Virus record (IMG/VR): IMGVR_UViG_3300036827_000153
Coordinates: 1-38,779 of that record
DNA: 38,779 bases
Strand: one strand, 5' to 3'
Origin: a virus
Shown here piece by piece: positions 1 through 37,916 of this stretch. The stretch's first letter is position 1. Each line of letters opens with the position of its first letter. Below the pieces are notes generated by a model, which saw only the letters and a program-made list of their open reading frames with translations, was not told the DNA's origin and did no database searches. Made by a program: the position numbers and the translations under genes.

Positions 1-86
1 AAAAGGACTCTGTAGAACGCCAGGAGACCATGACCAAAATAATCATTGAATTAATACAAAAATACAAAAATAAAAAAGAAAAGATG

Positions 87-114
87 TTGACTCCGTATAA
101 TACTTAAGTATAAT
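87..114 (+). promoter_or_regulatory. Promoter of the early operon
   Basis: A -35-like TTGACT at 87-92 and a perfect -10 TATAAT at 109-114 are separated by 16 bp. Another TATAAT lies at 96-101. The promoter sits in the 3' end of the first RHH gene and fires toward the second RHH gene at 151. The -10 hexamer lies between and overlaps both palindromes described separately, so protein bound there should block RNA polymerase. The second copy of the promoter is at 38739-38766 in the terminal overlap. Confidence 0.7.
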
Positions 115-124
115 ACTTAAGTAT
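100..124. promoter_or_regulatory. Tandem palindromic operators
   Basis: ATACTTAAGTAT, a perfect 12-bp palindrome, occurs at 100-111 and again at 113-124 with a 13-bp period. A degenerate third copy (ATAATTAAGTAA, 10 of 12 matches) is at 129-140. The sites straddle the -10 element of the promoter and precede an RHH gene. Autoregulation by one or both RHH proteins is inferred from this arrangement, which is typical of Arc/CopG-type repressors. Confidence 0.7.
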
Positions 125-150
125 AGTGATAATTAAGTAAGGACAACAAT

Positions 151-321
151 ATGGTAAAAGACACAAAAAGTATAAATGTTGAGATAAAGATAGAACATTG
201 GAAAAGATTAAAGATAATGTCTATAGAAAAGAACATTACCTTACAAGAAGTAGTCAATGAGATACTAGAACGCTTTGTATATAAGAAAGCAAAGAGTATT
301 ACCCATAACGAGGAACAATAG
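151..321 (+). CDS. Ribbon-helix-helix (Arc/CopG-like) regulator, second of two
   Basis: This 56-residue protein has a short N-terminal beta strand (SINVEIKIEHW, about residues 7-17) followed by two helices (KRLKIMSIEKN and LQEVVNEILERFV), the layout of an Arc/MetJ/CopG ribbon-helix-helix dimer that binds DNA with its strand pair. The start follows AAGTAAGGA by a normal distance. The gene lies 27 bp after two perfect palindromes, and an RHH gene of similar size lies directly upstream across the contig junction. The stop is followed at once by the next start (322). It is probably a repressor of the early operon, including itself; antitoxin is an alternative, but no toxin is recognised nearby. 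Confidence 0.75.
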   Translation: MVKDTKSINVEIKIEHWKRLKIMSIEKNITLQEVVNEILERFVYKKAKSITHNEEQ

Positions 322-579
322 ATGCGGTCTCTTATATCATTTGACACACTGGAATATATGGACGAGTTAAAAAGGTCAGGGATGAGACAAGAAGAAGCAG
401 AAGCAATTACAAAGGCCACCTCAAAGGCATTTGCCCAGATGATGGAAACAAAGGAACTTATTACAATGACAGACCTAATGAAAACAAAGAACGAACTGGA
501 AGCTTTTATTGTAAAGACGATCACCACGTCGGTTGTGGTGTTAGGCGGACTACAGACACTGTTTCACTTTTTAAAATAA
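322..579 (+). CDS. DUF1640-like small coiled-coil membrane protein
   Basis: The 85-residue product has the DUF1640 pattern: an N-terminal FDTLEYMDELKRSGM segment, a helix of the type EEAEAITKATSKAF, an acidic/basic helix, and a C-terminal hydrophobic segment (about residues 66-82) that would span the membrane. DUF1640 proteins are small tail-anchored coiled-coil proteins related to the CCDC90 family; their role in phages is not known. A second member is at 32727-32969. The ATG directly follows the stop of the RHH gene, with AGGAA upstream, so the two are probably co-expressed. Confidence 0.6.
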   Translation: MRSLISFDTLEYMDELKRSGMRQEEAEAITKATSKAFAQMMETKELITMTDLMKTKNELEAFIVKTITTSVVVLGGLQTLFHFLK

Positions 580-594
580 CTTAAGGCGTACAAA

Positions 595-614
595 GCAGGG
601 ACTGCAATCCCTGC
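595..614. terminator. Stem-loop after the DUF1640-like gene
   Basis: GCAGGGA at 595-601 and TCCCTGC at 608-614 form a perfect 7-bp stem with a 6-nt loop in the gap between 579 and 650. There is no run of T on either side, so it could be a factor-dependent terminator, an attenuator or an RNA processing site separating the regulator genes from the rest of the early operon. Confidence 0.35.
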
Positions 615-649
615 CTGGTACTGGTCATTAACGAAGCGGGAGCTATGCA

Positions 650-1042
650 ATGATTAAGAGCAATATACAACAGTTACATTCGGTTAGGCAAGATGCTAGG
701 GAAGGTATCTTTACAATGGAAGATAATTCATTCACACGACTTCTCCACAATCTAATTCGGGAGCATGGAACTTACCGTAACGGCAGCTATTCAGTTGATA
801 CACATGACTTTTCTTTTACCGACATGCGCCTTGTGCTTAGTTACTTGGTAAGCAATAAAGAACTTGTGTCAGCCTATCAATCAAAACCCAAGACCTCACA
901 ATTATTTGAAAAGCACCTCACAGACATCCAACACTTCATCGATGAAGAATGTCCCACGGTCTATTGCGAGGCGATGGAAGAAATGGGGATGACGCACCGC
1001 GCCCATCCAGATAATGGTGAAATTTATTGGGTCAAAAGATAA
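650..1042 (+). CDS. Hypothetical early protein, 130 aa
   Basis: I do not recognise this protein. It is soluble-looking and mixed charged, with a probable long helix over FTDMRLVLSYLVSNKELV (about residues 55-72) and an acidic C-terminal half. GGGAG at 638-642 supports the start at 650. It is followed after 14 bp by the Sak4-like ATPase, so it may belong to the recombination group, but nothing in the sequence itself shows a function. Confidence 0.6.
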   Translation: MIKSNIQQLHSVRQDAREGIFTMEDNSFTRLLHNLIREHGTYRNGSYSVDTHDFSFTDMRLVLSYLVSNKELVSAYQSKPKTSQLFEKHLTDIQHFIDEECPTVYCEAMEEMGMTHRAHPDNGEIYWVKR

Positions 1043-1056
1043 TAGGAGAAGACAAC

Positions 1057-1935
1057 ATGTTTCAAATAAGAAAAGCGGAACGTAGACAAGCAAAATTAAG
1101 GTTGGCACTAATGGGTGTATCGGGTTCTGGAAAGTCAGTAGGTGCCATTAATCTTGCGGCTGGCATGGGTGGAAAGTTCATTCTCATTGATACAGAGCAT
1201 AGGAGTGCTGATTTATATGCCCATCTGGCAGACTTTGATGTGATTAACTTAGACAAACCATTCACACCAGAAAAATATGTCCAGGCCATTAATTATTGTG
1301 AAGAGCGAGGATATGAAACTATTATCATTGATTCATTGTCCCATGCTTGGTCTGGTGAAGGCGGCGCATTAGACATGCACGACATGGCGACAAATGCATC
1401 TCCTAGTAAAAACTCATATATGGCATGGAATGAAGTGACTCCCTGGCAAAATAAACTAGTCAATACCATCATTCAATCTCCATCCCATATCATTGTCACG
1501 TTACGGGTCAAGACACATTATGATTTGGTTGACATTCAAGGAAAAAAGAAACCAATAAAAATAGGACTGGCCCCCATACAAAGGGCAGAGCTGGAATATG
1601 AATTTACAACTGTATTAAGTATAGACAAAGACAGCCACTTATGCACTTCCTCAAAAGACAGGACAGAAATATTTGAAGGAAAGCATGAAAAAATATCCAA
1701 AGAAACAGGCAGGAAAATTATAGAATGGCTTAACAATGGAAAGTCTTTCAAAGAAGTAGAAAAGGAAGAGGTAGGAAAGTTTACTCAAGACCTGGAATCT
1801 TGTTCGACCATGGAAAGTCTGAGAACTACTTTTAGGATAGCAAGAGACAAATATCCTAGTCATTACGATAGTTTTTTAAAAATATGTAATGAAAGAAGCC
1901 AATTATTAAATCCTATTGGAGAGATGTCATCATGA
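1057..1935 (+). CDS. AAA_24/Sak4-like RecA-fold ATPase (recombinase)
   Basis: This 292-residue P-loop ATPase has Walker A GVSGSGKS at residues 20-27, a beta strand ending in FILIDTEH at 41-48, and Walker B TIIIDS around 88-93. This is the layout of phage AAA_24/Sak4 proteins, RecA/Rad51-like ATPases that assist single-strand annealing with the phage SSB. The C-terminal 70 residues extend beyond the core. The ATG at 1057 is chosen because AGGAGA lies just upstream; an earlier in-frame ATG at 1027 would overlap the previous gene and lacks a good ribosome site. A Gp157-like protein and an SSB-like protein follow, a combination often seen in phage recombination modules. Its stop overlaps the next start (ATGA). 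Confidence 0.8.
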   Translation: MFQIRKAERRQAKLRLALMGVSGSGKSVGAINLAAGMGGKFILIDTEHRSADLYAHLADFDVINLDKPFTPEKYVQAINYCEERGYETIIIDSLSHAWSGEGGALDMHDMATNASPSKNSYMAWNEVTPWQNKLVNTIIQSPSHIIVTLRVKTHYDLVDIQGKKKPIKIGLAPIQRAELEYEFTTVLSIDKDSHLCTSSKDRTEIFEGKHEKISKETGRKIIEWLNNGKSFKEVEKEEVGKFTQDLESCSTMESLRTTFRIARDKYPSHYDSFLKICNERSQLLNPIGEMSS

Positions 1936-2093
1936 GCTTAGAATCCAATGAAGGATATATTTGTGCCTTGAAAAACATGAAAAAAACCATAGAAGAAGAA
2001 ATTGAACGTTGTGAATATGCCTTAGGTGAATGCTATTCAAACTATTATGAAGATGAACCCATAAAGAAATATTCAGACATTAGAGGAACATAA
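1932..2093 (+). CDS. Small hypothetical protein, 53 aa
   Basis: This short acidic frame starts in an ATGA overlap with the ATPase stop and ends 1 bp before the next ATG. It predicts one long helix (LKNMKKTIEEEIERCEYAL) and a tyrosine-rich tail. Tight coupling to recombination genes on both sides argues for a real gene. Function unknown. Confidence 0.6.
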   Translation: MSLESNEGYICALKNMKKTIEEEIERCEYALGECYSNYYEDEPIKKYSDIRGT

Positions 2094-2094
2094 A

Positions 2095-2589
2095 ATGAAC
2101 TTATACAATATTGCAAATGAATACCAAAACATATTTGAACAAACATTTGACACTGAAACAGGCGAGATAAATGAAAATGCACTTGCCTGTCTTGCAGAGG
2201 TCAAATCAACCATACAGGAAAAAGGGATTGCGGTCGCCTCCTACATTAAGAACATTGACGCAGAAAGAAAGGCCATTGAAGAAGCCAAGAAGGCCATGGC
2301 AGAACGAGAAAAGAGATTAGACAATCGAGTTAATTATCTTACCCAATATCTTCAATCCAATATGGAAAGGTGTGGCATCAATGAAATCAAGTCACCTTAC
2401 TTTGTGGTGAAATTAAAAAAATGTCCTTTCTCTACGGAGATATGGGACGAAAACTTAATACCGAATGATTATAAAAAAACCAAGGAGGTCATGAGCATAG
2501 ATAGAATAAAAATAAAGGAAGAGATATTGGCGGGCGTCGTCGTTCCTGGCGCGTCACTTAAACAAAACAACCGATTGGACATTAGATAG
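2095..2589 (+). CDS. Gp157-like (Sipho_Gp157) protein
   Basis: The 164-residue protein matches the Siphovirus Gp157 family in layout: an N-terminal helix (LYNIANEYQNIFEQ), a GEINENAL segment, a long coiled-coil (about residues 50-90, AERKAIEEAKKAMAEREKR), the NMERCGINEIKSPYFVVKLKK turn and strand, and a C-terminal part with an ...VPGASLKQNNRLDIR ending. Members occur in phage recombination operons beside Sak4/Erf-type and SSB genes and have been linked to resistance to host nucleases; the biochemical role is not settled. Start has AGGAAC upstream. Confidence 0.8.
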   Translation: MNLYNIANEYQNIFEQTFDTETGEINENALACLAEVKSTIQEKGIAVASYIKNIDAERKAIEEAKKAMAEREKRLDNRVNYLTQYLQSNMERCGINEIKSPYFVVKLKKCPFSTEIWDENLIPNDYKKTKEVMSIDRIKIKEEILAGVVVPGASLKQNNRLDIR

Positions 2590-2621
2590 GAAAACAAACT
2601 TTTAAACAAGGAAGTCAGACC

Positions 2622-3083
2622 ATGAAATTTTCACCTTTAACGGAAGATGAAATTAAGAAAATGTCACTCGCCCCGGAAGGCATTTATAGTTACCGAGTCA
2701 TAAGTGCCGAAGAAAAGACATCGAAAACAGGCAATGAATATCTTTCATTGATGCTAGAGATATGGGGCGAGGGGACGCGGGTTTATATTTTATTTACCGG
2801 TCTCTTTACTGCCAAACTGATTAAGCATTTTTGTGACATAAATGGGTTACAAGACCAATATAATTCTGGTAATCTAGCGGCCACTGATTGTTTAGGAAAA
2901 GGCAACGGCAAAATTTTAGTCGATATACAAGAAGGCAAGCCCAACGAAAGGGGCGGCCTGTGGCCTGCAAAAAATGGGGTCAAAGACTATATTATTGACC
3001 CGGTCGGCTCACAAACAATGCCATTGGGTGCTGTGCCATTTAGCGCATCCGGTGCACTTGCTAATGAAGACATACCATTTTGA
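2622..3083 (+). CDS. DUF669-like single-stranded DNA-binding protein
   Basis: The 153-residue protein has the DUF669 pattern: APEGIYSYRVISAEEKTSKTG near the N-terminus, beta-rich core through YLSLMLEIWGEG, and a C-terminus ending in DIPF. The DIPF ending matches the acidic tip of bacterial SSB proteins that recruits partner proteins. It probably coats ssDNA and works with the Sak4-like ATPase three genes upstream. CAAGGAAG lies upstream of the ATG. Confidence 0.75.
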   Translation: MKFSPLTEDEIKKMSLAPEGIYSYRVISAEEKTSKTGNEYLSLMLEIWGEGTRVYILFTGLFTAKLIKHFCDINGLQDQYNSGNLAATDCLGKGNGKILVDIQEGKPNERGGLWPAKNGVKDYIIDPVGSQTMPLGAVPFSASGALANEDIPF

Positions 3084-3094
3084 AGGAGAGTAAG

Positions 3095-3250
3095 ATGGAA
3101 AAGGAAATATTAAATGAGGCGCTGGTTTCAGAAGGACTTAAACTTCTAGACGAAGCATTTTGTCATTTTGTTAAAGTGCATGATTGCGAAAGAAGTTCGA
3201 TAATTGCCCATGTTCTGGGTGGACTACTTGTACTCGCAAAATCAATTTAG
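3095..3250 (+). CDS. Small helical protein, 51 aa
   Basis: The frame begins 11 bp after the SSB-like gene with GGAGAG upstream. The C-terminal third (SSIIAHVLGGLLVLAKSI) is hydrophobic with small residues and resembles the central helix of other short early proteins downstream. It may be a short version of that design. Function unknown. Confidence 0.55.
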   Translation: MEKEILNEALVSEGLKLLDEAFCHFVKVHDCERSSIIAHVLGGLLVLAKSI

Positions 3251-3281
3251 ACTATATCATCAACGGGCCGGGAGCATGGAC

Positions 3282-3683
3282 ATGAGTGAATTAAAGGTCA
3301 CATGGGAAAAAATCGACCTCAAAAAACCTGTTGTCAAATATATCGACCTAGGCAATGGGACCTGTTTTACCTTAGTTAGTTTCTATTTTAACACCGGTTT
3401 TTTTCGTAGACATTTTATCGGTATAGAAAGAAAAGGGGCATTTCTTTTCCCTACTTTCGGTTATGTATCCGGTGAATATGTTTCAGAGAAATTAAACCTT
3501 CCTGTTCCTGATGCCAATATCATTGCAGACTGGATGAATGTGCAAAGAGACAAATTCGTTAAGCAGCAAGGAACTTATTCAAAAAGAAATATTGCCGTTG
3601 CTTATGAGGAATGGACCAACGATTCTGATGTCTTATTGCCGATTATCTTGCCAGAAACAGAACTATCCAAGGAGACAAAGTAA
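3282..3683 (+). CDS. Hypothetical early protein, 133 aa
   Basis: The start at 3282 is preferred because CGGGAG lies 7 bp upstream; in-frame starts at 3204 and 3276 overlap the previous gene or crowd that site. The product is aromatic-rich with several predicted beta strands (VVKYIDLGNGTCFTLVSFYF, FFRRHFIGIERKGAFLF) and a charged C-terminus. I do not recognise the family. Confidence 0.55.
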   Translation: MSELKVTWEKIDLKKPVVKYIDLGNGTCFTLVSFYFNTGFFRRHFIGIERKGAFLFPTFGYVSGEYVSEKLNLPVPDANIIADWMNVQRDKFVKQQGTYSKRNIAVAYEEWTNDSDVLLPIILPETELSKETK

Positions 3684-3687
3684 CCTT

Positions 3688-4014
3688 ATGATAAATAAAA
3701 ATGGTTCTGAACCGAGACTTTCACAAGAAGAGCTTCGAATACTTTGTCGAGAAATGACGTCACTGCTTATCGATACTATTAATAACCATATTAAAAAATT
3801 ATCAAAATTACAGGTTAAAAAAGATGGAATGCCTTTAGATGATGGTAATGTTATGATTCTTATTATAACAACTTTAGGTGTTGTCACAGGACATATTGTT
3901 GCCAATTTTGAGAACCTCTTTGATAATTTGAATACAAAAAAACTATTAAAAGAACATGAAAGCATGATCTATCAAGCTCTTAATTATAATCGTAAGAATT
4001 ATAAAGAACATTAA
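3688..4014 (+). CDS. Small alpha-helical protein, paralogue of 4024-4350
   Basis: This 108-residue product has an N-terminal LSQEELRILCREMTSLLIDT helix, a hydrophobic central helix (VMILIITTLGVVTGHIVANF) and a C-terminal amphipathic helix ending in YKEH. The next gene repeats each of these parts, so the two are tandem duplicates. The start follows AAGGAGA. Role unknown; the central segment is borderline for a membrane span. Confidence 0.65.
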   Translation: MINKNGSEPRLSQEELRILCREMTSLLIDTINNHIKKLSKLQVKKDGMPLDDGNVMILIITTLGVVTGHIVANFENLFDNLNTKKLLKEHESMIYQALNYNRKNYKEH

Positions 4015-4023
4015 AGGAATTGT

Positions 4024-4350
4024 ATGACAGACAAAAAAAATAAAGAATATGTTCTTTCGAATGAAGAAATACGGAAAATTTGTGAAGGTATCACTGATGA
4101 ACTTATCAATACCATGCGTAAAAGTATTACAATTGAAATGGGCAAACATTTCCCATTGGATTCTACTTTTTTAAAAGACAGTGTTATTATCAGTCTCATT
4201 ACAACCATCACTGCCGTGTTCTCTGGGAAAATGTTATATTCGAACATTAGATTAAATAGTAGTATTCCTATCGATACTTTAATTGAATTGCATAGCAACA
4301 TCATGAAAGATGTCATCAAAACACATAAAGAAACTAAAAAGGAACATTAA
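4024..4350 (+). CDS. Small alpha-helical protein, paralogue of 3688-4014
   Basis: The 108-residue product has LSNEEIRKICEGITDELINT at residues 11-30 aligning with the same region of the preceding gene, then a hydrophobic helix (VIISLITTITAVFSGKMLY) and a C-terminal helix ending in KKEH. Length and layout are the same but most positions differ, so divergence is old or fast. The stop overlaps the next start (TAATG). Confidence 0.65.
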   Translation: MTDKKNKEYVLSNEEIRKICEGITDELINTMRKSITIEMGKHFPLDSTFLKDSVIISLITTITAVFSGKMLYSNIRLNSSIPIDTLIELHSNIMKDVIKTHKETKKEH

Positions 4351-4544
4351 TGATTTATCTCAGAAGAAAATTGAGCTATGAATTTATCTACAAGGCCGTA
4401 TTGGAATTGTTTCAGTATGACAAAGACAAGACAAACCTATGGTGGATGGCAAAGAACCCACAACTAAAAGGACTGTCCCCTTTTGAAGTAGTCAAAAAGG
4501 GAAAGGGACGAAGGATCATGCAACTCATAAACAGGTGTGGATAA
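4350..4544 (+). CDS. MbcA/ParS/Xre-type antitoxin C-terminal domain protein (DUF2384-like)
   Basis: The 64-residue product carries a pattern typical of the toxin-binding domain of Xre/MbcA/ParS antitoxins: LELFQYDKDKTNLWWMAKNP (helix, then W..xxNP), followed by LKGLSPFEVVKKGKGRRIMQLI. In antitoxins this domain holds a RES-type toxin and follows an N-terminal DNA-binding part; here that part is absent and no RES-like gene is adjacent. It may neutralise or mimic a host antitoxin, or may simply use the fold for another purpose. Coupled by TAATG to genes on both sides. Confidence 0.5.
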   Translation: MIYLRRKLSYEFIYKAVLELFQYDKDKTNLWWMAKNPQLKGLSPFEVVKKGKGRRIMQLINRCG

Positions 4545-4798
4545 TGTTAAATATAATCAAACAATGGTTTTGTCACCATCCTTCCATTTTAATAAAAACA
4601 GAAACCTGTTTTAACTCAGTTTTAATTTCTATGACGTCCATAATATGTGAGGACTGTAAAAAATCATTTCCCGTTCATCCACATTCAAATTGCTGTCATG
4701 TGCAGCATTTGCACGCTGAGGCCATCAAGGAACATATCTTTAGAGACGTCCATATGTCCATGAAGCAATATTTCGCTCCAGAAAGAGAATTAAAATAA
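4544..4798 (+). CDS. Cys/His-rich small protein, 84 aa
   Basis: The start at 4544 overlaps the preceding stop as TAATG. The product is rich in cysteine and histidine (CHHPS, ICEDCKKSF, HPHSNCCHVQHLHAE), with a CxxC pair and several His that could bind zinc. It ends in a TAATGA overlap with the next gene. Function unknown; the metal-binding idea is inference. Confidence 0.5.
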   Translation: MLNIIKQWFCHHPSILIKTETCFNSVLISMTSIICEDCKKSFPVHPHSNCCHVQHLHAEAIKEHIFRDVHMSMKQYFAPERELK

Positions 4799-5253
4799 TG
4801 AAAATAGGAGATCAAATTTGTTCACTCTCATTTGCGAAAAAATTACATGGACTAGGTATCATGCAAGAAAGTCTTTTCTTTTATGAATGGTATTCTGACG
4901 ATGCATTCAGGATTGCAAATGATGAAGAAAGGGCGCAACAACATGGTCGTGAACAATTTGCGGCCTTTACTGTATCGGAATTATTGGACCTCCTGCCTTC
5001 AATGATTTCAAAACCAGCAAGAGAAGGATTCGCTGTTCTTAATTATTATTTTAAATTAGAAAAAACTGAACTCCGGTCACGTTCATTTTATTGGTCAATT
5101 TATGAAAGGCCAACAGGCGGGATACTTCCTGACAGAGAACTATATTCTCCAGCATTTTGCAATATAAAGTGCGCAGATGCTTTGGCTGAATTTTTGATTT
5201 ATTTGATCGAAAAAGAATGTCCTGAAATTAGGAAATTAAAAAAGGAAATTTAG
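4798..5253 (+). CDS. Conserved phage hypothetical protein, 151 aa
   Basis: The N-terminus (QICSLSFAKKLHGLGIMQESLFFYEW) fits a family common in phages and integrated elements, in which an LxxAKKLxxLGxxQESLFYW start is followed by an AFTVSELLDLLP segment and a C-terminal helix near DALAEFLIYLIE. All three are present here. The family has no established function. The gene is part of the overlapping early chain. Confidence 0.65.
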   Translation: MKIGDQICSLSFAKKLHGLGIMQESLFFYEWYSDDAFRIANDEERAQQHGREQFAAFTVSELLDLLPSMISKPAREGFAVLNYYFKLEKTELRSRSFYWSIYERPTGGILPDRELYSPAFCNIKCADALAEFLIYLIEKECPEIRKLKKEI

Positions 5254-5255
5254 GA

Positions 5256-5618
5256 ATGACAATAAAAGAACAATGCAGGCATCGTGATGCTAATACAAGA
5301 CAAGAAAAATTGACAGAGGAATTGACCTTGAGGTTGCATGGGACCATTCATGAGTTTATGGAAAAAGAATCGAGTCAAAGAAATGACGAACCCATGGAAG
5401 GAGAAATTTGTCTGGCAATTATCGCGGCCGCAACCAATGTTGCGGCCAACACAGTGGCTTTTTTTACTATTCCATTCTCTGATGAGGGGAAAAAATACAT
5501 CATAGATGAAGCCAAGGAAATCTTCATGGTCCGGTTAGAAGATGAATTGACTGAAATAAAGAATGACCTCGATACTTACGATTTATTCTTAAACAGGAAC
5601 GCAAAATGCGAGACATAA
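5256..5618 (+). CDS. Small helical early protein, 120 aa
   Basis: The product has a charged N-terminal region, a central helix of small hydrophobic residues (EICLAIIAAATNVAANTVAFF, about residues 50-70) and an acidic C-terminal helix (EAKEIFMVRLEDELTEIKNDL). This is the same three-part layout as the products at 3688, 4024, 6419 and 6709. It overlaps the next gene by 13 bp. Function unknown. Confidence 0.6.
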   Translation: MTIKEQCRHRDANTRQEKLTEELTLRLHGTIHEFMEKESSQRNDEPMEGEICLAIIAAATNVAANTVAFFTIPFSDEGKKYIIDEAKEIFMVRLEDELTEIKNDLDTYDLFLNRNAKCET

Positions 5619-5911
5619 AAGAATTTGAAGGAGAAGCCAATGAATATGACGCACTCGCTATTATGTGTCCTCCATTGGCTGATTTCAAAGAACAGCCTAA
5701 AGACCAGTCGCATTGCGACCTGGTTAATTGCCCGGTATGTGGTGAAAAAATGTGGCTTTCAGACGAGAAGAAGAAAGCAATCTTCATTTGTTTAATAAAA
5801 AACAAAAGGTTGATCTGTGGTTGTTACCGTTGTATAGAAAAAATGACTCAAAAAGAATTTATGGAATTTGATCATATCGAATTGATTAATATACGACATA
5901 AGGGAAAATAA
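5606..5911 (+). CDS. Zinc-ribbon phage protein of the CPxCGxxMWLS type, 101 aa
   Basis: It has CPVCGEKMWLSDEKKKAIF in the middle and CGCYRC about 30 residues later, giving two cysteine pairs for one zinc. Short proteins with the CPxCGxxMWLSxxKK signature and a second CYxC pair recur in phages without assigned function. CAGGAACG precedes the ATG, which lies inside the end of the previous gene. Confidence 0.6.
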   Translation: MRDIKEFEGEANEYDALAIMCPPLADFKEQPKDQSHCDLVNCPVCGEKMWLSDEKKKAIFICLIKNKRLICGCYRCIEKMTQKEFMEFDHIELINIRHKGK

Positions 5912-5924
5912 AAGGAAAAGGGCC

Positions 5925-6422
5925 ATGAGCTGTATTACTGAAATATTGCGTGTAAAGGGCGACAAAGAGTATTTAGTGGTAGGCGGAATCGCCATCGAGA
6001 AGGGCGGCACGTATAAAGGGTTTGAGTATTTGATTACATTCACGAGCCGAGGCCACCGTTGTGGCTATGTCGCCGTGCCAGAAACCCATCCTGCCTGGCA
6101 CAAATCAGAGGACTATGATGTTTATGGTGGAATTACCTTCTTTGAACAAAGCCATTTTGCAGGAAAAATAACAGGCCATGTCTGCACAGACAAATGGTTG
6201 GGCTTTGATGCCATGCATATCGATGATGGAAAGGACTATGGGCTCATTAAAAAGATATTCGGAAATTGCGAAAAAACGATGAACGAACTTGGTGGCCTGA
6301 AATATATAGATGAAAGGTTTGCCATGCACATGGGAAAAAAAATACAAAAACCGAAAACGAAAGAATTTATGATAAGAAACTGTAAAAGCTTAATACGACA
6401 ATTGGTCAAGGAGCAACAATGA
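5925..6422 (+). CDS. Conserved phage hypothetical protein (GHRCGYV family), 165 aa
   Basis: The protein contains YKGFEYLITFTSRGHRCGYV, then VPETHP, VYGGITFF and DKWLGFDAMH, a series of motifs seen in the same order in a widespread phage protein family. The ordered His, Cys and Asp residues suggest a metal site or enzyme, but no activity is established. A C-terminal basic helix extends past the usual motifs. It overlaps the following gene by ATGA. Confidence 0.65.
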   Translation: MSCITEILRVKGDKEYLVVGGIAIEKGGTYKGFEYLITFTSRGHRCGYVAVPETHPAWHKSEDYDVYGGITFFEQSHFAGKITGHVCTDKWLGFDAMHIDDGKDYGLIKKIFGNCEKTMNELGGLKYIDERFAMHMGKKIQKPKTKEFMIRNCKSLIRQLVKEQQ

Positions 6423-6712
6423 AAAGAAACCTAGAAGCACTGGTCCCTCTTCTTTCTAAAAAATTAACCGATGAAGGAATATCTTTCCTTTCCAATTTAA
6501 ATGATGGAGACGGAATAGAAACTGCATCAGATGTAATGGACCTTATGTTGAGTTCTTATATCAATGCCCTCTTTACGCTAATAAGATTGATAGCATTTGA
6601 TAATGTAAAAGGACTTGAAAAAGTTGAGATATTTATCAATGAAATACAAAATTGCATCATAAATTCAAAAGTAATCAATTCTGTTACTTATACTAAAGAA
6701 GGAACAATATGA
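6419..6712 (+). CDS. Small helical early protein, paralogue of 6709-7026
   Basis: The 97-residue protein has a central helix DLMLSSYINALFTLIRLIAF followed by a helix LEKVEIFINEIQNCIINSKVINS. The next gene repeats this as MSAYMTSLFKVLLAI and VILFIKEMEEFFSRSEFINS, so the two are tandem duplicates. ATGA overlaps join it to both neighbours. Function unknown. Confidence 0.6.
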   Translation: MKRNLEALVPLLSKKLTDEGISFLSNLNDGDGIETASDVMDLMLSSYINALFTLIRLIAFDNVKGLEKVEIFINEIQNCIINSKVINSVTYTKEGTI

Positions 6713-7026
6713 AAACAGACATAAAGAAATTCTTTATGGACATGGTCCCTGAATTGTCATGGTATATTTCAAATCAAGCAATTATGCTTATTAAATACAA
6801 AGCAGGAAAAGTAACAAATGACGAAGATTTCGATAGTAAATTACTGGTTGATTGTTTAATGAGCGCCTACATGACTTCATTGTTCAAAGTCTTATTAGCA
6901 ATCTCAGAAGAAGATGAAGTTATGCAAAAAAATGTAATATTATTTATTAAGGAAATGGAAGAGTTCTTTTCTCGTTCAGAATTTATTAATTCTATTAATA
7001 TCATCCTAACGAAAGAACAGTCATGA
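6709..7026 (+). CDS. Small helical early protein, paralogue of 6419-6712
   Basis: The 105-residue product matches its upstream neighbour over the central helix and the C-terminal FINS-ending helix, with an acidic link (SEEDEVMQK) between. The layout also resembles the products at 3688, 4024, 5256 and, on the other strand, 30820-31116. It starts in an ATGA overlap with the previous gene. Function unknown. Confidence 0.6.
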   Translation: MKTDIKKFFMDMVPELSWYISNQAIMLIKYKAGKVTNDEDFDSKLLVDCLMSAYMTSLFKVLLAISEEDEVMQKNVILFIKEMEEFFSRSEFINSINIILTKEQS

Positions 7027-7077
7027 CCTTCGATGAAATCAAGATAGGCATATTATTTATTGAGAAGGACAAAGATA

Positions 7078-7392
7078 ATGAGTAATTTTATACAAGATAT
7101 TTCTCGTATTGTTATTTTATATACTGAAATAGTAGAAAAAGAAAAGGAAATAGCAGAAATAAAACGAAGAATATGTTTGTCAATAGATAGTGAAATTGTT
7201 ATAAAAATTATTAATCATGGAATTGCTGTTAACGCCCATATGGCAATGAGATTTTGTATTTTAAAGACAGCCATTGGATTAGGACATAATAAGGAAATAG
7301 ACGGTCGAATAAAAAGACAACAAGAATTTTTAAATATAACGGGATGGAAATATATAACTGATATGGAAATATTAAGAAATAAAATGAAATAA
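7078..7392 (+). CDS. Hypothetical helical protein, 104 aa
   Basis: ATG at 7078 follows AAGGAC and is preferred over an upstream TTG at 7060. The product predicts long helices: a charged coiled-coil (YTEIVEKEKEIAEIKRRI), then HGIAVNAHMAMRFCILKTAIG, then a basic helix. The central part again resembles the small-residue helix of the other early proteins. Function unknown. Confidence 0.55.
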   Translation: MSNFIQDISRIVILYTEIVEKEKEIAEIKRRICLSIDSEIVIKIINHGIAVNAHMAMRFCILKTAIGLGHNKEIDGRIKRQQEFLNITGWKYITDMEILRNKMK

Positions 7393-7407
7393 AAGGAAAT
7401 TTTAAAA

Positions 7408-7764
7408 ATGAAGAATGAAATCGAAATTAGAAAATTAATAGATACTTTATCAGAAATAAAATCGAGACAAGAAATTGCTTTCGATATATTGAAACCCTGC
7501 TTTAATAGTAAAGATGAAATATATAGACACTTTGCAGCTATGTGTGCTCATTTAAGTTTATTTACAAAAGATATTTATAAACGAATTACAAAATGTGAGA
7601 TAGATGATCAATTTGACGAAGAAGTAATGCAGATAATGGAATTTCTAAAAACGTGCGGATGTAATACAATGAAAAATATGGTTTGTACAATTTGCAAAAA
7701 AGAATTCCAATTCCTTGAAAATAAAGACGGACAAGAATTAATTTGCCCGTCCTGTTATTTTTAA
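7408..7764 (+). CDS. Helical protein with C-terminal zinc ribbon, 118 aa
   Basis: The first 80 residues are helical, with RHFAAMCAHLSLFTKDIY similar in style to the preceding gene. The C-terminus adds VCTICKKEF and LICPSCYF, two CxxC pairs that form a zinc ribbon. AAAAGGAAATTTT precedes the start. It is the last gene of the rightward early operon; a stem-loop overlaps its 3' end. Function unknown. Confidence 0.6.
   Translation: MKNEIEIRKLIDTLSEIKSRQEIAFDILKPCFNSKDEIYRHFAAMCAHLSLFTKDIYKRITKCEIDDQFDEEVMQIMEFLKTCGCNTMKNMVCTICKKEFQFLENKDGQELICPSCYF
7726..7760. terminator. Bidirectional terminator between convergent operons
   Basis: GACGG (7726-7730) pairs with CCGTC (7747-7751). On the + strand the stem is followed by CTGTTATTTTT; on the - strand it is followed by TTTATTTTC. 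T-rich tails on both sides and the position between the ends of the early (+) and tail (-) operons fit a two-way terminator. The stem is short and overlaps the last early gene. Confidence 0.5.
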
Positions 7765-24269: not shown

Positions 24270-24527
24270 TTACTTATTTTTCCAGCCGCCAGACATCGAC
24301 CCATGTTGTCCCACAGGCATTGCCCCTGGCCTTTGAATGACTCGACTAATGCCTTGCTGATGGTTGTCTTTGACGACTGCGGTGTGTTCAGGATGGCCGT
24401 GGTTGTTGGCCTCTTTTCGTTCATGCGCCGCCTTATGCTGGTCGCGCATTTTGTGGTGCGCCATCTCGCCCTTGTGGTAGTGGTGGCCTGATTTGTGCTT
24501 GTTCGCTTCCATGTGAGATTTTTCCAT
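24270..24527 (-). CDS. Histidine-rich small protein, 85 aa
   Basis: The ATG at 24527 is preferred because AAAAGGAG lies just upstream; an in-frame ATG at 24545 overlaps that site. The product is extremely rich in His, Lys and Gly (HKSGHHYHKGEMAHHKM; NNHGHPEHTAVV) and could bind metal ions or nucleic acid. It precedes the putative head-fibre gene by 35 bp and is probably co-transcribed with it. No family recognised. Confidence 0.55.
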   Translation of the reverse strand: MEKSHMEANKHKSGHHYHKGEMAHHKMRDQHKAAHERKEANNHGHPEHTAVVKDNHQQGISRVIQRPGAMPVGQHGSMSGGWKNK

Positions 24528-24545
24528 TGTGAAACTCCTTTTCAC

Positions 24546-24860
24546 GGGTTAAGTATCTTTACGCCAATTATCAACTATCCGTCCCTTTAATGCTATGTCT
24601 ATGTGTTGACAATATACAAGCAATCTTGGACACTTTAAGATTGCCTCCCCTAATAATATATATATATTTATTTATTATGGTAGTTACTATGTAAGGCAAA
24701 ACGGGGCATAACTCTAATTACATTATTAAAAACATATAGTTATATAAATCAAAAGCAGTATATAGCTTGTAGATAAAAAAGTAACAACTTTTCTCAAAAA
24801 TCCTGTCCACACGCTATACAGACATTATTCACAGAAATTGTGGATAACTTTTCCTTGGCA
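24546..24860. other. Candidate replication origin: A/T block and DnaA-box cluster
   Basis: This gap of over 300 bp has no gene. It holds an 8-bp inverted repeat GCAATCTT/AAGATTGC (24620-24627, 24637-24644), a very A/T-rich stretch at about 24651-24677 (TATATATATTTATTTATTA), a second A/T-rich stretch at 24716-24780, and three exact TTATNCACA DnaA boxes next to its right end. An easily melted block beside clustered DnaA boxes is the layout of bacterial oriC and DnaA-dependent plasmid origins. The lack of a phage polymerase or primase supports use of host DnaA and replisome. Confidence 0.6.
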
Positions 24861-24869
24861 TTATGCACA
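24825..24869. promoter_or_regulatory. Three DnaA boxes
   Basis: TTATTCACA at 24825-24833 (+), TTATCCACA on the - strand at 24839-24847 (TGTGGATAA as written), and TTATGCACA at 24861-24869 (+) all match the TTATNCACA consensus exactly within 45 bp. A weaker CTGTCCACA is at 24803-24811. The last box includes the stop codon of the neighbouring leftward gene. Confidence 0.75.
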
Positions 24870-25211
24870 GATATTAGGGGTCAATGCGCCACATTTCCCA
24901 CATCTCCTAAATTCCCTATCAGACTCGTCTTTAAAGACAATTTCTGACACGTTCTTTCCAATCTTTCCAAGATTTCCACAAGAAGAACACCGATGTAATG
25001 TCTCTTTTATGTTCTCAAAGATATTGATTTTTCCATATAGACTACAAAGAGAACTCAAAGTGTCGCTCAATTTCTCAATACGAATATCTTTTTCTTTCAT
25101 TTCTTTCTCTAATTTCTCAATCCTCTCAAAGCACCTTTCAATACCAGTATAAACATTTTCGAATAACGTTGATGTTTCCTCTATCTTATCTGGAACATGA
25201 CATCCGCTCAT
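24861..25211 (-). CDS. Coiled-coil protein with zinc ribbon, 116 aa
   Basis: Residues 8-60 form a heptad-type helix (FERIEKLEKEMKEKDIRIEKL). The C-terminal part has CSSCGN and CGKCGA, two CxxC pairs 29 residues apart that can bind one zinc. It ends inside a DnaA box, directly beside the putative origin. The start overlaps the previous stop by ATGA and follows AGGAAGAG. DNA or protein binding is plausible but not shown. Confidence 0.55.
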   Translation of the reverse strand: MSGCHVPDKIEETSTLFENVYTGIERCFERIEKLEKEMKEKDIRIEKLSDTLSSLCSLYGKINIFENIKETLHRCSSCGNLGKIGKNVSEIVFKDESDREFRRCGKCGALTPNICA

Positions 25212-25408
25212 AAAACTCTTCCTATGCTAATATTAATTTGAAGTCGGACCTCGGGGTTCGGCAACGTCCATACTTCTCCCGTATTGTCAAATGCAACGAT
25301 CCATAAAAGATGATGTTCTTGGGAGTAATCGATCCATCCAATGGCATGGCCTGTCCCTCTGCCTTCCACATAGACAGGAATAGTGGGATCAAGTTGAATT
25401 ATCGACAT
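25208..25408 (-). CDS. Conserved small phage protein, 66 aa
   Basis: The pattern VYVEGRGTGHAIGWIDYSQEHHLLWIVAFDNTGEVWTLPNPEVR is typical of a short protein found in many tailed phages between terminase/portal and capsid genes; its role is unknown. It predicts a small beta barrel. It overlaps both neighbours and belongs to the late leftward transcript. Confidence 0.6.
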   Translation of the reverse strand: MSIIQLDPTIPVYVEGRGTGHAIGWIDYSQEHHLLWIVAFDNTGEVWTLPNPEVRLQINISIGRVL

Positions 25409-25619
25409 AACCGATGCCTCTACATTTATGGCATTTCTTCTGAATCACCTCGAAATCAGGCAATGGTGCATATCCACATCCGCGACATTCAGGACATTGC
25501 ACAAGGTCAGTCACCGGCCTCGCTGCCATTCTTTCGTTAAATTCTTTGTTTAGATGTTCCAATTCATCATAGTGGTCATCCTCCCTCAAACGAGCCAATT
25601 CCGCTATTAAGTCAATCAT
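25389..25619 (-). CDS. Small protein with DnaJ-type zinc motif, 76 aa
   Basis: The N-terminal half is helical (IAELARLREDDHYDELEHLNKEF). The C-terminal half has CPECRGCGY and CHKCRGIGY, two CxxCxGxG-like repeats as in the zinc domain of DnaJ, which binds one zinc and unfolded proteins. A second small protein with the same motif type is at 32358-32615. ATGA overlap joins it to the upstream tiny gene. Confidence 0.6.
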   Translation of the reverse strand: MIDLIAELARLREDDHYDELEHLNKEFNERMAARPVTDLVQCPECRGCGYAPLPDFEVIQKKCHKCRGIGYVDNST

Positions 25620-36794: not shown

Positions 36795-37916
36795 TCAAGA
36801 CAACATCCATATTTTGCCTCTTTTTCCGCTAATTGAGAACGTTTCGTATATTTTTAACTCATCCTTGGCTTTGTATAATCGGTTGACTGAAAACCCTCTC
36901 TCCATCGCTTCTTTCCTTATTTCCGATAATGGAACTGATCCATTCTTGAGCATTTCGATCAAAAATTGTTTAACTTCTTCAAGTTTCGGAGAGTCAAGGG
37001 ACAAACCGGCGTTTAAGATTTCATTAGCAGTTTTGTCGATCTTTTCGTCCAGCCATTCAATCTTGCTGGACTCTATCTGACCATCTATCATGAGTCCTTT
37101 TATTTGATAAACGAACCCCGTTTCGTCCTGGCCGATATTGTTTTTAATCGGCAAAAACAAACGCCGCTTCGGGTCATCCGGGTCTTTCATGATGCCGTAC
37201 ACGATCCTGGCCGCTGCTGCAAAGCCGATGCTGCCCATGACACGATAGATTGCGTTTTTATGAGACATGCCAGACGGTTTTGAAAAATGACTATTGATGA
37301 CGATGGCAAGGTTGTGGCGTTCGGCAAGTGCCATAATGATTGCCATGGCCCGACGTATTTCCTTGTTTTTGTTTTCATCGACCGACCCCAAATAGATAGA
37401 AATGGGATCAACAATCATGAGCTTGTAATTGTTTTTCTTTATTTTTTCCTCTAAGTCGGCCATGTGCTCAACCAAACAAATGGCGTCGTAATAAGGATTG
37501 CCATTCTTGTCCCTTTTTTTCAGTCCCTTCACATTATCGATATGGTTGAGGTCTGCACCGAGCGCCAGTAGCCGCGGCTTGATAGTGTCCTCTGAGCTGT
37601 CCTCGCCCGAAATCAGTAGCACCCGTCCTGCCTCGCAAGGTACCGGTTCAAAATGGAAACACCCTCCTTTGCTGACAATGCTCGCGATGTAAAGCAGCAG
37701 TTGCGACTTGCCGACACCGGGCTCGCCCGCAAACAACGTGAGCTTTCCATAGGAGATGACGTTCTTCCAAAGCCAGTCGATTTTCTTGACTTGCACGTCG
37801 GCCAGGTTTTCGATTTCGATATCAACGGCCTCAGGTTCACCGTAAATGTGTTGGACTTTCTTATACTGGTTGATCTCTTCCTGTGAGACCATAAACTCGG
37901 TAGGTTCCTTAGTCAT
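36795..37916 (-). CDS. AAA_25/RepA-like RecA-fold replicative helicase
   Basis: The 373-residue protein has Walker A GEPGVGKS at residues 64-71, strands with AGRVLLISGEDS, Walker B KLMIVDPISIYLG near residue 170, IVINSHFSKPSG (sensor-like His), and a C-terminal helical domain with a winged-helix look (PLSEIRKEAMERGFSVNRLYKAKDEL). This is the layout of AAA_25 helicases related to RSF1010 RepA and DnaB-type ATPases. It is the only replication enzyme recognised in this genome. The start overlaps the previous stop by ATGA. The iteron-like region follows its 3' end. Confidence 0.8.
   Translation of the reverse strand: MTKEPTEFMVSQEEINQYKKVQHIYGEPEAVDIEIENLADVQVKKIDWLWKNVISYGKLTLFAGEPGVGKSQLLLYIASIVSKGGCFHFEPVPCEAGRVLLISGEDSSEDTIKPRLLALGADLNHIDNVKGLKKRDKNGNPYYDAICLVEHMADLEEKIKKNNYKLMIVDPISIYLGSVDENKNKEIRRAMAIIMALAERHNLAIVINSHFSKPSGMSHKNAIYRVMGSIGFAAAARIVYGIMKDPDDPKRRLFLPIKNNIGQDETGFVYQIKGLMIDGQIESSKIEWLDEKIDKTANEILNAGLSLDSPKLEEVKQFLIEMLKNGSVPLSEIRKEAMERGFSVNRLYKAKDELKIYETFSISGKRGKIWMLS

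Follow-up and report, generated by a model that had tools for sequence, protein, structure and literature searches.

What does a cluster of DnaA boxes do amid the late structural genes of a tailed phage? For a phage that has no polymerase, initiation has to be taken over from the host, and how such phages act on the nucleotide cycle of DnaA is little known. The locus considered here lies in a virus record from IMG/VR, 38,779 bp long, which is referred to below as the window. The original prediction read it as a candidate replication origin dependent on host DnaA.

Results and discussion

The phage and its relatives

PHROG matches identify the window as a tailed phage. The structural matches comprise a P22-like portal, a major head protein, head-closure and ejection proteins, and the large and small terminase subunits; further matches were obtained for Sak4-like, Mu-Gam-like and single-strand-binding proteins, a VRR nuclease and a DnaB/primase-helicase-like ATPase. 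The phage had been described as devoid of polymerase and primase. Scanning 40 ORFs of the window indeed returned neither of these, nor an initiator or dnaA gene, but replication genes are not wholly absent, since ORF 36795–37916(−) encodes the DnaB/primase-helicase-like ATPase (PHROG matches, Pfam AAA_25). The composition of the window is mosaic, with rightward genes at 34–38% G+C (1–7764) and leftward structural genes at approximately 40–54% (7765–38260), and the right contig end (38749–38779) carries repeats of ATAATACTTAAGTAT.

Relatives retrieved with the capsid protein as query numbered at least 80 among viral contigs and 6 among bacterial genome assemblies; one of the 6 belongs to a Legionella maceachernii isolate and shows 55% capsid identity. 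With the terminase as query, three real relatives (L002–L004) were present among the 80 loci kept. Family contigs also occur in assemblies labelled Bacteroidetes, Sulfuricurvum, Desulfosporosinus and beta proteobacterium (L282, L283, L284, L286 and L287). As not all of these can be hosts, the labels are likely due to binning errors. No nucleotide match to the window was obtained among cultured phages or plasmids, short-element searches of cultured phages gave matches at chance level only (best E 0.01 and 0.6), and Rfam and tRNA scans found nothing.

Composition of the DnaA-box cluster

The cluster resides in a gene-free gap of 333 bp with 68.8% A+T (24528–24860). These limits assume that the neighbouring gene for a small His-rich protein (24270–24527, − strand), downstream in the late direction, starts at ATG 24527; the listed ORF begins with GTG 24545, but the ATG is likelier and is preceded by a ribosome-binding-like AAGGAG. 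A homologue of the His-rich protein is encoded in 32 of 89 relative loci. The gene on the other side (24861–25211, − strand) encodes a 116-aa coiled-coil/CxxC protein, for which tblastn found no homologue among the same 89 loci.

Three exact TTATNCACA boxes are present within 45 bp, at 24825(+), 24839(−) and 24861(+), just as predicted. The first, box II (24825–24833, TTATTCACA), is separated by the 5-nt spacer GAAAT (24834–24838, + strand) from box I (24839–24847, TTATCCACA), which faces it head-to-head. The resulting dyad reads TTATTCACA-GAAAT-TGTGGATAA. The third exact box (24861–24869, TTATGCACA) follows 13 nt past box I and overlaps the stop codon of ORF 24861–25211(−). The claimed length of the gap, over 300 bp, holds, but the third box is therefore partly coding, and two of the three exact boxes lie wholly outside the neighbouring genes. 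Weaker direct boxes precede the dyad: a candidate box III (24814–24822, + strand, CTATACAGA), matching at 6/8 informative positions, ends 2 nt upstream of box II, and a further 6/8 match (24803–24811, + strand, CTGTCCACA) ends 2 nt upstream of the candidate, so that CTGTCCACA, CTATACAGA and TTATTCACA form one row with 2-nt gaps and an 11-bp period. A one-mismatch box, TTATCTACA, is found at 24768–24776(−); boxes of this quality occur at chance frequency (44 in the window vs. 44.85 expected). The boxes adjoin an A/T-rich block at 24640–24800, as had been noted, which represents a possible unwinding element or promoter region. At 75.8% A+T it stands at the 99th percentile of the window, and equally A/T-rich stretches exist near 31, 3.9 kb, 6.6 kb and 7.0–7.4 kb.

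The expectation that such a cluster would rarely arise by chance was confirmed. When the window was simulated 2000 times with a first-order Markov model, no run contained three exact boxes within 45 bp; none of 20,000 simulations of the local 355 bp had three, and the expected number of head-to-head pairs with a 5-nt spacer in the window is 2.3e-5. Simple chance is thereby ruled out as the origin of the cluster. The total number of exact boxes is ordinary (5 in the whole window vs. 1.70 expected, with at least 5 in 7 of 100 shuffles). As the DnaA-box cluster is non-random, its sequence makes it a probable target of host DnaA.

Recurrence of the dyad in viruses and bacteria

The pattern TTATNNACAGANNTTGTGNATAA was found at 77 places in 2.9 million IMG/VR viral contigs, compared to one for the reversed control. 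The 5-nt spacer is preferred, in that variants with 4 and 6 nt gave 5 and 20 places, respectively. Adding the relatives L276 and L254 to 76 loci of this search provided a set of 78 dyad loci, which includes near-duplicates (L290 and L346 of L254, L311 of L276, L335 of L332). Relatives of the terminase, portal, scaffold or capsid of the window are co-encoded in 30 of the 78, and the remaining 48 have no structural gene of this phage family. The dyad also occurs in 46 of 274 genomes sampled from the larger class that contains Legionella (built-in controls, 0), and 30 of the matching genomes yielded loci. In two other bacterial classes it was found in 1 of 82 and 0 of 119 genomes.

DnaA-box clusters of a general kind are present in at least 120 stretches of viral contigs (L082–L201; reversed control, 0). 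Among the matches listed, dense arrays show direct spacing of 2–3 nt, and inverted pairs are mostly 2–3 or 13–15 nt apart. These arrays thus resemble the locus in having clusters of TTATNCACA but differ from it in that their inverted spacers are mostly of lengths other than 5 nt. Clusters of this kind, common as they are, could fit a DnaA sink similar to datA, i.e. titration that withdraws DnaA from the host oriC, and several non-coding boxes of differing strength, with the bound DnaA multiplied by phage copy number, would suit such a role. Titration needs no fixed 5-nt head-to-head spacing, however, and the IHF site located between boxes in datA has no counterpart here, as no exact IHF consensus WATCAANNNNTTR was found in or near the gap. 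A sink is accordingly a minor possibility, and we consider it improbable.

Position of the dyad in related phages

Two or more exact boxes within 100 bp were found in none of the 89 relative loci other than L254 and L276, both of which contain the dyad; weaker versions were found in L264 and L270. When the whole gap was compared with these loci by blastn, the two best matches were exactly the dyads of L276 and L254. Both carry the dyad at the start of the packaging operon, ahead of a small CxxC protein, TerS and TerL. The dyad of the window is displaced from this position: it lies between the portal and capsid genes, in the opposite orientation to late transcription compared with the relatives. 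Its setting amid late genes, which the original prediction called unusual for an oriC-like origin, is an unusual one for the cluster. Two relatives, L208 and L002, keep the flanking conserved genes with no gap between them. The element is patchy across whole records, as a dyad with at most two mismatches is present in 6 of 39 (the window and 38 relatives), the window being one of the 6. Each of 44 records has one dyad place, a count that used only loci already known to hold a dyad (44 of the 77) and is 44/44 by construction.

In relatives, small DnaJ-like CxxC proteins recur beside the dyad where the packaging operon begins, before TerS. The window encodes a protein of this zinc-ribbon-like type at 25389–25619, approximately 540 bp from the displaced dyad.

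Being palindromic and, in relatives, close upstream of reading frames, the dyad could be taken for the operator of some phage repressor or for an RNA hairpin whose likeness to DnaA boxes is accidental. Still, variation among dyads is concentrated at position 5, which DnaA ignores, and at position 6, and inspection shows that TTATCAACA left arms break the RNA stem. Together with a third DnaA box at the spacing found in DARS (see below) and the same element in bacterial chromosomes, this renders an unrelated operator or hairpin a minor and very improbable explanation. The orientation relative to late genes differs between the window and its relatives, a difference that a DARS would accommodate more readily than an operator.

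Box III and comparison with DARS

Box III was absent from the search pattern, so its occurrence next to the dyad is unselected. After near-duplicates and elements too near an end had been dropped, 62 viral and 29 bacterial elements were available. A box III-like 9-mer, matching at 6/8 or more informative positions, is located 3 nt upstream of the dyad in 25 of the 62 viral elements, in 13 of the 25 family elements and in 25 of the 29 bacterial ones, while counts at the remaining offsets (0–27 nt) ranged from 0 to 4. Judged from these sequences, the conserved architecture is III-3-II-5-inverted I. The window deviates in part: its box III, CTATACAGA, scores 6/8 at 2 nt, and nothing of 5/8 or better is present at 3 nt.

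This architecture was compared with the two DARS elements (DnaA-reactivating sequences, at which ADP-DnaA is recharged) in the E. coli MG1655 record. DARS1 (bioD-uvrB) reads TAATACACA-TGG-TTATCCACA-GGAAT-AGTGGATAA and DARS2 (near mutH) reads TTCTTCACA-ACT-CTATCCACA-GAAAA-GGTGAATAA. The segment 24825–24847 shares box order, orientation and 5-nt spacer with both, and thus has the head-to-head pair of DARS. Like the cores of DARS1 and DARS2, the element is intergenic and has a candidate direct box upstream of box II; it differs from them in being phage-borne, in its weak box III at 2 nt, in the lack of any IHF site found and in the extra exact box that follows box I by 13 nt. The chromosomal DARS-like elements of gammaproteobacteria show the same 23-bp dyad pattern as the window but have a stronger box III, at 3 nt in the 25 elements counted above. 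Known DARS flanks comprise IHF and Fis sites in DARS2 and a stimulatory region of approximately 50 bp in DARS1.

Boxes I–III have the same spacing in DARS1 and DARS2, with box I opposing II and III, and the head-to-head pair is a prominent DARS feature (PMC5742627). It is also described as characteristic and functionally essential, unlike the head-to-tail boxes of oriC (PMC10380432). A ChIP-seq study lists the III-II pairs of DARS1 and DARS2 as double boxes occupied by DnaA; paired boxes may be 2 or 3 bp apart for the E. coli protein, and at purH a 2-nt gap works as well as 3 (PMC11317965). The tolerance at purH matters here because the candidate box III of the window has a 2-nt gap. DARS2 requires IHF and Fis and DARS1 does not (PMC5742627).

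Evidence for and against an origin

In the origin reading, DnaA would assemble on the boxes and open the A/T-rich block. Both hallmarks, a DnaA-box cluster and A/T-rich DNA alongside it, are present, as in oriC, and the row of weak direct boxes with 2-nt gaps described above points in the same direction. Across the family, the 160 bp upstream of the dyad are richer in A+T than the downstream DNA (0.674 vs. 0.606, 30 loci) and than the overall average (0.603), which suits an origin or a promoter. Moreover, 6 of 10 relatives have their cumulative GC-skew minimum no more than 2.2 kb from the dyad, but there the change in skew coincides with gene divergence at the dyad, so that this observation is confounded and cannot decide. 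In the window itself the minimum is 13 kb from the element, and the skew falls from −0.041 to −0.159 across it, opposite to what an origin would give, although skew is weak evidence in phages.

The build of the element is a further objection. A head-to-head core with a fixed 5-nt spacer is unlike oriC arrays, the same core heads the packaging operon in related phages at one copy per record, and the gap is absent in the two relatives with the same gene order. The window differs from oriC in this core, in the lack of skew support and in having no initiator or dnaA gene among the scanned ORFs. Hence, what persists of the original prediction is the non-random DnaA-box cluster; on account of the head-to-head core, the skew and the relatives, an origin is no longer its best reading, and we regard it as unlikely.

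Evidence for and against a role in transcription

The strongest of the rivals to a DARS-like reading is a DnaA-responsive transcription switch. DnaA at the element would repress or activate nearby late genes and thereby couple the packaging genes to the replication state of the host. In relatives, the element is found shortly upstream of a small CxxC (or other small) ORF, TerS and TerL, often between divergent genes, and good σ70-like promoters occur just upstream in L276, L324 and L338 (scores 12.8, 10.2 and 10.5). Its position in bacteria, where 12 of 31 loci have it upstream of priA, is in line with such a role, and E. coli DnaA regulates genes via paired boxes 2–3 bp apart (PMC11317965). 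The priA-side position and the fact that DnaA sites in E. coli often regulate genes mean that control of transcription would account for some of the data.

Nevertheless, a promoter is poorly discernible. Upstream of 25 family dyads the promoter score was 6.87, hardly above the 6.26 of shuffles (difference 0.61, s.e. 0.39); higher scores were obtained on the reverse strand (7.26), and the −10 sites lie at scattered positions. With no significant promoter excess and no common −10 position in these 25 dyads, a fixed promoter before the dyad was rejected. The window has fewer promoter-like sites than expected (2 vs. 3.9), and its element faces away from the start of the next gene. The regulon pairs at purH, polA and nrdA share with the locus direct boxes 2–3 bp apart; they differ in that no inverted box I at a fixed distance is needed (PMC11317965), so that regulation through paired boxes does not call for a head-to-head box I at 5 nt. 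On balance a transcription switch is possible, albeit somewhat unlikely.

The bacterial loci merit description in their own right. The 31 gammaproteobacterial loci comprise those from the 30 genomes of the Legionella class with a returned locus, and L378. In 12 of them (L381, L386–L389, L393–L395, L398, L399, L405 and L407) a three-box DARS-like element is situated 16–143 bp upstream of the priA start. DARS1 and DARS2 of E. coli are located elsewhere than priA, and a priA-side element, when compared with E. coli genomes by blast, gave weak matches only. In a scan of 33 ORFs, the neighbours other than priA had no family in common except two histidine kinases. The priA-side element may be a DARS that has escaped notice or a site through which DnaA controls priA and, given its presence in many gammaproteobacteria, is a candidate regulatory site in itself.

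A proposed phage-borne DARS-like module

Of the readings considered, a phage-borne DARS-like DnaA module explains the cluster best, and we put it forward tentatively. The element is termed DARS-like, not DARS; its head-to-head core falls within the definition of the latter. Host DnaA would bind boxes I and II head-to-head, assisted by the weaker III-like direct boxes upstream. By analogy with DARS1 and DARS2 of E. coli, ADP-DnaA molecules placed face-to-face would lose ADP, depart as apo-DnaA and reload ATP. The level of ATP-DnaA in the infected cell would then rise and initiation by the host machinery would be favoured. A phage with a helicase-like ATPase, for which no polymerase was found, would need that machinery and could profit. 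The boxes, their geometry, their recurrence in related phages and gammaproteobacteria, the identity with the DARS core geometry and the box III of the group are observed features, whereas DnaA binding, nucleotide exchange and a benefit to the phage would follow from the analogy.

Several observations weaken the DARS reading. Box III of the window is weak and sits at 2 nt instead of 3 nt, no exact IHF site is near the gap, and the element is patchy (6 of 39 records), with 48 of the 78 dyad loci devoid of a structural gene of the family.

Conclusions

A broader version of the DARS-like reading, possible in our view but doubtful, is that widespread uncultured tailed phages carry their own DARS, recharging ADP-DnaA and overriding once-per-cycle control, and that the element has here moved into the structural operon. 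No phage-borne DARS was found in the literature searched. Known phage actions on DnaA, such as that of the prophage protein YfdR, which reportedly binds it, are mediated by proteins. The assays of ADP dissociation and the flow cytometry used for DARS1 and DARS2 are directly applicable to the phage module. If the DARS-like reading is true, a virus would shift the replication switch of its host with a few dozen base pairs, i.e. by DNA only and with no protein. The build of the element, DARS-like and not that of an ordinary origin, suggests that some phages may tune the host replication switch.
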